Both the position numbers and the translations under genes were made by a program. Positions 40,867 to 44,873 of a stretch of DNA of 64,000 nucleotides are shown one piece after another. Within the stretch, counting starts at the first letter, position 1. Each line of letters opens with the position of its first letter. Source of the DNA: an uncultured Gammaproteobacteria bacterium (lineage in GTDB: Bacteria; Pseudomonadota; Gammaproteobacteria; Pseudomonadales; Pseudohongiellaceae); NCBI GenBank assembly GCA_913060975.1, contig CAJXVC010000003.1, forward strand, positions 62,001-126,000, read 5' to 3'. The notes beneath the pieces were generated by a model. That model was not told where the DNA came from. It did no database searches and was given only the letters and a program-made list of their open reading frames with translations.

Positions 40867-43707
40867 TCACTTTTGCTTCTGGGCAAGTACTGGTTTCAGG
40901 TATTCGCCAGTATGTGAACCCTTCGCTTTGGCCACTTCTTCCGGAGTGCCCTCGGCGATAATCTGACCGCCGCCACTTCCGCCTTCCGGGCCCAGATCGA
41001 CGATCCAGTCAGCAGTCTTGATGACGTCGAGGTTGTGTTCGATCACCACGATCGTATTGCCCTGATCGCGCAGGTGGTGCAGCACGCTTAATAATTGGCG
41101 GATATCCTGAAAGTGCAAGCCAGTAGTTGGCTCATCAAGGATGTACAGTGTTTTGCCAGTATCACGTTTGGAGAGTTCCCGACTGAGTTTCACGCGCTGG
41201 GCTTCACCGCCGGACAGCGTCGTCGCCGCCTGACCGAGGCAGATATAGGACAGGCCTACGTCGATCAGGGTCTGCAGCTTGCGGGCGATGACCGGGACGG
41301 CGTCGAAGAACTCGCGGGCATCCTCGATAGTCATATCCAGCACTTCGCAAATGTTCTTGCCTTTATATTGGACTTCCAGGGTCTCGCGGTTATAGCGCTT
41401 GCCCCGACATACATCACAGGCCACATAGACATCAGGCAGGAAGTGCATCTCGACCTTGACCACGCCATCGCCCTGACAGGCTTCGCAGCGTCCACCTTTG
41501 ACATTAAAGCTGAAGCGGCCGGGCTTGTAGCCACGGCTCCGGGCTTCTTCAGTCCCGGCGAATAACTCGCGTACTGGCGTGAAGATGCCGGTATAGGTGG
41601 CAGGATTGGAACGCGGCGTCCGCCCGATCGGGCTCTGGTCGATATCGACCACCTTGTCCAGATGCTCCATGCCTTCAATGCTGTCATAGGGGGCTGGATT
41701 GAGTGTGGTGGCACCATTGAGCTTGCTGGCGGAAATCGGATACAGGGTATTGTTGATCAGGGTGGATTTGCCCGAGCCGGATACACCAGTGATGCAGGTA
41801 AACAGGCCAATCGGAATCTTCAGCGCGACTTTCTTGAGATTATTGCCCCGCGCACCCTTGATATGGAGCATCTTGTCCATGTCGCGCGGTATGCGCTCGG
41901 CCGGAATGGCGATGCATTCCTTGCCGCTGAGGAATTTGCCAGTCAGGGATTTTTTATTGCCGGTGATATCGGCCAGCTTACCCTCGGCGACGATTTCACC
42001 ACCGTGCACGCCGGCACCGGGGCCAATATCGATAATGTGATCGGCGCTGCGAATGGCTTCCTCGTCATGCTCGACGACAATTACCGTGTTGCCAAGATCG
42101 CGCAGATGGAACAGAGTGTTGAGTAGACGACTGTTGTCGCGCTGATGCAGGCCAATAGAAGGCTCATCCAGAATATACATCACACCAACCAGTCCGGCGC
42201 CGATTTGGCTGGCCAACCGAATGCGCTGGGCTTCACCACCAGAGAGGGTGTCGGCACTGCGGCTCAGCGTAAGATAGTTGAGGCCGACATCGACCAGAAA
42301 CTGCAGGCGGTCCTGCAACTCTTTCAAGACCTTTTCAGCAATCTTGGCGCGTTTGCCGGCCAGCTTGAGTTTATGGAAATACTCGGTGGCGTGGCTCACT
42401 GTCATGTTGGTGATGCTGGGCAGATTCTTGCCCTTGATCAGTACATGCCGGGCATCCTGTTTCAGGCGCGTGCCTTCGCAGTCCGGGCAGGACTGAGAGC
42501 TCAAATACTTGGCCAGTTCTTCCCGGACCATGCTCGATTCGGTTTCCCGATAACGCCGTTCCATATTGGGCAGGATGCCTTCGAATGGGTAGCTGCGGGT
42601 GACGCGGTCACCGCGATCATTGACGTAGTGGAAGTCCACCACTTCATCGCCGCTGCCATGCAGGATGACCTTGCGGTGTTTCTTGCTCAGTTTCTTGAAT
42701 GGCGTATCGATGGAAAAGCCGAAATGCTCAGCCAGTGATGACAGCATGGAGAAATAATAGAAATTACGCCGATCCCAGCCGCGAATGGCGCCTTCAGACA
42801 AGGCCAGAGCCTCGTCGGTAATAATGCGGCTCTCGTCAAAATACTGTTTCAGGCCCAGACCGTCACAAGAGGAGCAGGCACCGGCAGGGTTATTGAAAGA
42901 GAACAGTCGTGGTTCCAGCTCGGAGATACTGTGGCCGCACATCGGGCAGGCAAACAGTGAGGAGAACACCATATCGTCTTCGGTGGTCTCGGTATCCATG
43001 ATGCTCACCGTGGCCAGGCCATCGGCGAGCTGAATCGCGGTCTCAAAACTTTCGGCTAGTCGCTGTTCCAGCCCCGGCTTGATCTTGACCCGGTCAATGA
43101 CGACGTCGATAGAGTGTTTCTTGTTCTTCTCCAGATCGGGCGGATACTCGATCTCGCACACCAGCCCGTCAACACGGGCCCGGATAAAGCCGCTGCTGCG
43201 CAGCTCATTGAAGACATGCAGATGTTCACCCTTGCGGTCACGAATAATTGGTGCCAGCACCATGACCCGGGTGTCTTCTGGCATGGCCATAACCTTGTCC
43301 ACCATCTGGCTGACCGTCTGGGCCTCCAGCTTGATATTGTGCTCGGGACAATGCGGCTCACCGACACGGGCAAACAACAGGCGCAAATAGTCGTAGATCT
43401 CGGTAATCGTGCCCACAGTGGAGCGCGGATTATGCGAGGTCGATTTCTGCTCGATGGAAATCGCCGGTGACAGCCCTTCGATATGATCGATATCGGGTTT
43501 CTCCATCATGGAGAGAAACTGGCGCGCATAGGTCGACAGCGATTCAACATAGCGGCGCTGACCTTCGGCGTAGAGCGTATCAAAGGCCAGAGAGGATTTG
43601 CCTGAGCCTGACAAGCCGGTAATAACTACCAGTTTGTCGCGGGGAATTTCGATATTGATGTTCTTGAGATTGTGGGTGCGGGCACCGCGTACGACTATCT
43701 TGTCCAT
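40867..43707 (-). CDS. uvrA: excinuclease ABC subunit A
   Basis: full-length Uvr[32 protein letters not shown]; zinc fingers; [11 protein letters not shown]. Confidence 0.98.
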
Positions 43708-43921: not shown

Positions 43922-44013
43922 GGGACTGCTGTGCTGGCGCCCTCCAATGGGCCATCCCTGGCCCGGTCCCGCGCCCGTCCCTGGCGCTAGTCGGGCGCCA
44001 GCACAGCAGTCCC
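43922..44013 (-). repeat. hairpin element 1 (21-bp perfect stem, 50-nt core)
   Basis: arms 43922-43942 / 43993-44013; core 43943-43992 is homologous (reverse complement) to the element 2 core. Confidence 0.85.
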
Positions 44014-44180
44014 ACCCAAGCGCGAATCAGTGCCAGCGGATGATTCTGCGGTTCTTTTTTGGGCTGTGTGTTAGTGACTTTGCTAACTGCAATTCCTTTG
44101 CATGTGTTTTCGGTCGTGAAGATTTGGCTTGGCGGTAGTCCGCAGCTACTTTTGCGTGGCAATCTGGCACTGCATCCGCA

Positions 44181-44288
44181 GGCGTTGGAGCCCGGGGTGG
44201 TGCGGCTGTGAGTAGCGACAGGGACAGGCGCGGGACGGGGCCAGGGATGGGCCCACCGAACAGCCGCAGCAACCCGGGCTCCGGCGCC
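44181..44288 (+). repeat. hairpin element 2 (29-nt arms, 50-nt core)
   Basis: arms 44181-44209 / 44260-44288 (mostly paired, including G-T wobbles); core 44210-44259 matches element 1. Confidence 0.85.
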
Positions 44289-44400
44289 ACTGCACAGACC
44301 CTCTATATTCAATCCAATTTCGCCATAAATTTTCAATTACCCGGAGCGTTGGTATAGACTTGCAGTGCTAAGCAGACAATCCAATCCAGGGAGAAAAACG

Positions 44401-44873
44401 TGGCAAGTCGAGGAATCAACAAGGTAATTTTGGTCGGAAATGTGGGCAATGATCCGGAAGTTCGTTATATGCCCAATGGCAATGCTGTTGCCAATGTCTC
44501 GATTGCGACCAGCGAGTCCTGGAAAGACAAGGGTACCGGTGAACAACAAGAGCGGACTGAATGGCACCGCGTGGTGTTCTTCAATCGCCTTGGTGAGATC
44601 GTTGAGCAATACGTGAAGAAGGGCAGCAAGCTGTACGTCGAAGGCCGTTTGCAGACGCGCTCCTGGGAACAGGACGGCGTCAAGCGTTACAGCACAGAGA
44701 TCGTTGCCAACGAAATGCAAATGCTGGATTCCCGTGGTGGTCAGTCAGACAGTGACTATGGCCAGCAGCGTTCTGCACCGCCGCAGCAGTCTTCGGGTGG
44801 CGGTGGTGGAAGCCAGCAGCCGCAGCCGCAGGCGGGCAACTTCGACAACTTCGACGACGACATCCCATTTTAA
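44401..44873 (+). CDS. ssb: single-stranded DNA-binding protein (GTG start)
   Basis: [23 protein letters not shown]-terminal DDDIPF. Confidence 0.97.

Follow-up and report, generated by a model that had tools for sequence, protein, structure and literature searches.

We found that the intergenic region between uvrA (minus strand, 40867-43707) and ssb (plus strand, 44400-44873) of an uncultured Pseudohongiella genome holds two copies of one element, E1 on the minus strand and E2 on the plus strand, which are divergent and face outwards. All positions refer to the window, the whole stretch of 64,000 nt that was analysed. Comparative sequence evidence makes it very probable that these elements are RNA structures under selection rather than DNA-only hairpins, and it is likely that they are related to the TwoAYGGAY RNA (RF01731), either as distant members or as a sister subfamily. 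In our main reading, each copy would serve as a decoy or landing site for CsrA and the copies would be spread partly by mobile elements; we give this combined mechanism a probability of roughly 0.55.

The hairpins had been noticed in a preliminary description, all coordinates of which proved exact when they were re-checked on the sequence with an inverted-repeat search. The complete E1 hairpin (43922-44013, minus strand) consists of a perfect 21-bp outer stem, with the sense 5' arm at 43993-44013 and the 3' arm at 43922-43942, and a 50-nt core; its arms can be lengthened to 32 nt and are then 91% paired. The complete E2 hairpin (44181-44288, plus strand) has 29-nt arms (44181-44209 and 44260-44288), which are 86% paired and likewise enclose exactly 50 nt. 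The covariance models R1 and R2 described below score E1 at 78.7 and 74.1 bits and E2 at 86.8 and 60.7 bits, respectively. Core 2 agrees with the reverse complement of core 1 at 41 of 50 positions ungapped, and the repeat search returned 44 nt common to E1 and E2 as inverted repeats that are 89% complementary. The flank motif CTGGCACTG adjoins the 5' arm of both elements, as CTGGCACTG(ATTC) at 44028-44036 on the minus strand and as CTGGCACTG(CATC) at 44164-44172 on the plus strand.

The core is composed of two small hairpins on the long outer stem and is closed by putative tandem G.A pairs and one covarying pair. In E1, sequence, fold and conservation place inner hairpin 1 (GCGCC-AGGGACG-GGCGC, with an A(N)GGAY loop) at 43971-43987 and inner hairpin 2 (GGGCC-AGGGAT-GGCCC, with a C-G-closed ANGGAY hexaloop) at 43949-43964, both on the minus strand. 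In E2, on the plus strand, the G-A-X motif lies at 44210-44212, as read from covariation over 50 copies; the tandem G.A would be formed by 44210 with 44259 and 44211 with 44258, next to the covarying pair X 44212 - X' 44257. Inner hairpin 1 (44215-44231, GCGAC-AGGGACA-GGCGC) and inner hairpin 2 (44238-44254, GGGCC-AGGGAT-GG(g)CCC), identified from sequence and conservation, are separated by a nearly invariant linker GGGA (44232-44235), which provides a third GGA.

A genome-wide search found two more copies, E3 (C10:20807-20910, minus strand) and E4 (C6:319-423, plus strand), which brings the host Pseudohongiella genome to four. The covariance model R1 was built from these four own-genome copies and searched against 149 genomes, with matches in 13 congeners and in two genomes of another family. 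Since R1 finds copies in congeners and in another family, the likeness of E1 and E2 is not due to chance. R1 found at least 26 copies each in G063, G077 and G094. With a second model, R2, the core turned up in a handful of genomes scattered over the class, 12 copies in one of them and five in another, and an exact-pattern scan of genome contigs gave more than 100 stretches, mostly from Pseudohongiella-type MAGs and some from other Gammaproteobacteria; pattern matches in other phyla, which come without the rest of the core, are probably chance. The element is therefore patchy in distribution and multi-copy. One locus (L132, G025:C1:2768000-2771500) has seven copies between apparent ilvN and ilvC, mostly head-to-tail in units of about 275 nt.

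The preliminary description had argued that a conserved core with stems kept only as pairing indicates selection on structure. This holds in 52 clusters of outer stems that are unrelated to one another, taken from all collected copies, whose arms are about 92% complementary; CTGGCACTG recurs as a flank motif in seven of the 52, compared with one on the reverse strand. The stems of E1 and E2 are unrelated, as had been claimed, but those of E3 and E4 are alike and also resemble some congeners' stems. Conserved stem sequences, which had been named as a finding that would speak against the idea, occur among recently amplified copies of one lineage, whereas different lineages have no stem sequences in common.

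Under a DNA-level process, G.U and A.C oppositions should be equally frequent on the sense (GACTAG) strand. Among the non-Watson-Crick stem positions on that strand, there are 53 G.U and 16 A.C (p = 9e-6; 28 stems versus 7). Substitutions in flanking sequence lean the same way weakly (39:26), and the stem excess over the flanks has a Fisher p of 0.04. Because the flank lean is weak and the copies show no orientation bias relative to adjacent genes, strand-biased mutation does not fully account for the excess. In the A-type subfamily, eight stem pairs were changed on both sides among 32 alignable copies, a number reached by 0 of 500 shuffles. X, which follows the invariant GA that opens the core, and X', which precedes the GA that ends it, form C-G in 35 copies, G-C in five, A-U in four and U-A in one, so that 45 of 50 are Watson-Crick (permutation p < 2e-5). 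Since this covarying pair is flanked by invariant GA/GA, it bears the signature of a junction with probable tandem G.A pairs. Because the wobble asymmetry and the covariation are strand-specific, an RNA family fits best among the three options offered earlier for the hairpins (an RNA family, a mobile ssDNA hairpin or a protein-recognised DNA structure); a mobile element fits in part, in some congeners. Eukaryotic miRNA families in the Rfam scan output were disregarded as sub-threshold, stem-driven chance matches.

It is very improbable that pairing is kept by template switching that corrects quasi-palindromes, with no selection on RNA, since such a process would not be expected to yield more G.U than A.C on one strand or to conserve the GGA loops or the X-X' pair. 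The visible cases of hairpin loss and of recombination through the core would suit it, namely L112, which has precisely lost hairpin B, L338 and L339, which are A/B fusions through the palindromic hairpin 2 that leave non-pairing arms, and L261, which is a chimera; some strand bias in mutation is also conceivable. In L135, L136, L174, L340 and L344, a small repeat (GCAGGTTTTTGCTCCTGCAAAACCTGCAT...CACATCCGTGTGG), which bears its own ACGGAU/AUGGAU-type hairpin, interrupts the element between inner hairpins 1 and 2. Since loss, fusion and interruption are all seen, pairing is not automatic, which argues that a copy still intact is young or has been maintained.

The Rfam gathering cut-off for RF01731 is 43 bits, and the window has no match at this level; E1 scores 23.9 bits, and E4 is also below the cut-off with 27.2 bits. 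Homologues score higher, with 43.1 bits for a congener copy (L080/L134), 42.3 for a copy from another family, 43.5 for a more distant class member (L433) and 54.8 (L460) to 66.8 for order members. Because the window copies lie below the cut-off and homologues lie above it, the former appear as distant relatives tied to RF01731 via intermediates. They also share its make-up: two adjacent AYGGAY-type loops, here ANGGAY in both hairpins of the 52 clusters, and an outer stem that is structural and not conserved in sequence, with putative tandem G.A pairing.

The known high-affinity Csr/Rsm site has A(N)GGAX above a C-G closing pair, with both N and X free to vary, and loops that lack the N bind as well, more weakly (PMC4005645); the ARGGAU hexaloop has been given as a Csr/Rsm recognition pattern (PMC9111926). 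By comparison with the published motif, the loops of the elements are of the A(N)GGAX type, on stems closed by C-G. The A, G, G and A of the hairpin 1 loop A(N)GGAY are present in 50, 52, 52 and 51 of the 52 clusters, respectively, while its N position is mostly G, otherwise T, A or absent; the hairpin 2 loop AGGGAU and the linker GGGA are nearly invariant in the same clusters. Sequence evolution shows that the GGA loops are invariant, with an N position that is free and deletable. The window genome has csrA, and its predicted CsrA keeps L4 and R44, which we take to be conserved key residues in the numbering of the well-studied E. coli protein. From the motif, we consider binding of CsrA/RsmA by the elements to be rather probable. 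Over 1.59 Mb of the genome, hairpins with an ANGGAY hexaloop show no enrichment (7 versus 7.7). In the literature, we found no published demonstration of CsrA binding to any TwoAYGGAY RNA and nothing relevant that connects CsrA with dispersed repeats.

Sequence comparison shows the divergent arrangement of E1 and E2 to be general across families of Pseudomonadales. In Pseudohongiella, many copies form pairs in which a minus-strand copy precedes a plus-strand one; the nearest neighbour of Pseudohongiella copies is divergent in 23 cases, convergent in 12 and tandem in 11. In an independent test with the Rfam model alone, 30 loci from other families of the order were scanned for a second match within 500 nt; RF01731 had one in eight loci, and all eight pairs were divergent, 209-403 nt apart, where chance is one quarter. 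Two further RF01731 loci are likewise divergent, and among the matches listed in order members the close RF01731 pairs are five divergent and two tandem. We found no description in the literature of the divergent-pair arrangement of TwoAYGGAY or of its carriage by miniature elements. In L458 and L459 (family f23), further inverted repeats, CTCGGCCTCCTGAAGGGGAC and AAAGAAAGTAAGCAAAGAAA, enclose the divergent TwoAYGGAY pair.

In G063, G077, G087, G093 and G094, the hairpins lie inside elements of about 240-560 bp bounded by CTGAGATATCCCCAC in inverted orientation; a version of 166 bp has no hairpin. At L337-L348, the miniature elements have CTGAGATATCCCCAC as their ends, and GGTCAGAG-like sequence often adjoins them. 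The window genome has 0 CTGAGATATCCCCAC ends compared with 43 in G077 and 26 in G094, and no terminal inverted repeats surround the window pair. Since these ends are absent from the window genome, the miniature element is a lineage-specific vehicle. These data bear on the possibility, which we think has a rather small chance of being right, that the element is a selfish mobile repeat, whose ssDNA hairpins serve its own transposition in the manner of REP/REPIN or IS200/IS605 and whose RNA role is incidental. Many copies in few genomes, assembly breaks at copies, carriage inside inverted-repeat-bounded elements and the resemblance of divergent pairs to REP doublets agree with it. However, the strand-specific G.U-over-A.C bias and four-type covarying pair, together with the lack of miniature-element ends in the window genome, argue against it. 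So does the search for the REP/Y1-type transposase partner that the preliminary description had envisaged: almost every genome tested has Y1 genes, but 0 of 20 examined Y1 loci carry a core within about 1.5 kb, and the REP/RAYT link was rejected. The element had no match in viral, plasmid and phage collections, which also speaks against a selfish repeat, and an origin from these sources was rejected.

A likely uvrA promoter (TTTACT-GATAAT) lies at 43769-43740 and a likely ssb promoter (TGGTATAGACTT), read from intergenic regions, at about 44350, with E1/E2 upstream of both. Since these putative promoters are outside the insert, the hairpins are absent from the leaders of both genes. The family shows no preference for 5'UTRs; among 97 copies, the convergent-gene context accounts for 31 and the others for 25, 23 and 18. 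Because E1/E2 are upstream of the likely promoters and a 5'UTR preference is absent, CsrA cis-control of uvrA or ssb is unlikely. Consensus scans gave no dedicated promoter in the spacer of the pair (44014-44180) or in ten other pair spacers, and no T-tract of an intrinsic terminator follows the stems of E1/E2; by these scans, the elements are not sRNAs of the CsrB/RsmZ type with their own promoter and terminator. A sigma-54 reading of TGGCAC was rejected by eye for its wrong spacing in E1 and E3. The long stable stems and the convergent genes as commonest context would suit a structured RNA independent of CsrA, which processes, stabilises or blocks transcription at transcript ends. We regard this as improbable, because it leaves unexplained the AnGGAY invariance in both loops and the linker GGGA with N free, and because the terminator T-tract is absent.

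In most congeners, about 176-414 nt separate the start codons of uvrA and ssb, and in ten congeners the separation is 575-743 nt. Six of these ten long gaps are accounted for by TwoAYGGAY-like elements, and other hairpin elements occupy the remainder. In the uvrA-ssb region of G023 and G002 (L142, L154), another kind of two-hairpin element, whose loops are AUGGAU/AGGGAY (GCGGCATGGATGCTGC ... CCAGGGACGGGTTTACGGCGTGTCC), likewise forms a divergent pair, and the ssb-uvrA gap of G076:C221 (L177) holds about three tandem G+C-rich hairpin repeats of about 150 bp that are unlike the other elements. G000, G011 and G012 have a same-orientation hairpin about 100-150 nt 5' of ssb with unrelated stems, and the stems of a uvrA-ssb insertion in G101 differ as well. 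The window genome (G000) also has a second ssb (C1:347120-347608), whose protein is 86% identical to that of the window ssb.

We propose the following for the CsrA decoy or landing site. Each element, judged by sequence evolution, folds as RNA into the long outer stem, the putative tandem-G.A junction and two short hairpins with A(N)GGAY loops, with the third GGA in the linker. Because an own promoter was not found, transcription of E1/E2 would probably be via read-through from adjacent genes. The two loops of one element may bind both faces of a CsrA/RsmA dimer, while the long stem may position the loops and protect the RNA. Each copy would then either act as a small decoy that binds CsrA or offer CsrA a landing site within its host transcript, and in some species copies would travel as cargo of miniature transposon-like elements. 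A more specific and only tentative idea is that TwoAYGGAY RNAs function in twos, as divergent pairs of three-way junctions that bind CsrA; carried and multiplied by mobile elements, these pairs would act as decoys and retune Csr/Rsm.

TwoAYGGAY has been without a known function since 2010, when it was rated a probable RNA by Weinberg et al. (PMC2864571); on motif grounds only, it was later suggested that RF01731 binds CsrA and contains tandem GAs (PMC4333381). This study adds many divergent homologues with strong covariation, an N that is deletable as in known Csr/Rsm sites, a general divergent-pair architecture across families of Pseudomonadales and a mobile-element route of spread. Together, covariation, the deletable N, pair architecture and mobility make the function testable in culturable Pseudomonadales, and they raise the possibility that a global regulator is modulated by mobile repeats. 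If the tentative idea of divergent pairs as functional units is right, mobile elements seed intergenic regions with CsrA decoys, which retune Csr/Rsm in host genomes.

Among known systems, REP/REPIN-RAYT repeats (PMC3116915) are also intergenic and palindromic, often inverted doublets and patchy among genomes, but the window element is an RNA-like three-way junction of about 100 nt with a variable stem, a strand-specific G.U bias and no Y1 transposase association found. CsrB/CsrC and RsmX/Y/Z sRNAs resemble it in that they have several GGAs in C-G-closed loops and linkers, with some loops lacking the N (PMC4005645); the window element has two loop sites only and one long outer stem, and it is dispersed and multi-copy, its own promoter and terminator not having been found. 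Compared with TwoAYGGAY, the window copies fall short of the cut-off, position 2 of the loop is mostly G (AGGGAY) and not Y, and the junction is of a different type, GAxTAG...x'GA. With TwoAYGGAY, they have in common the poorly conserved outer stem, the two hairpins with AYGGAY/ANGGAY loops, the putative tandem G.A at the junction and the gammaproteobacterial hosts.
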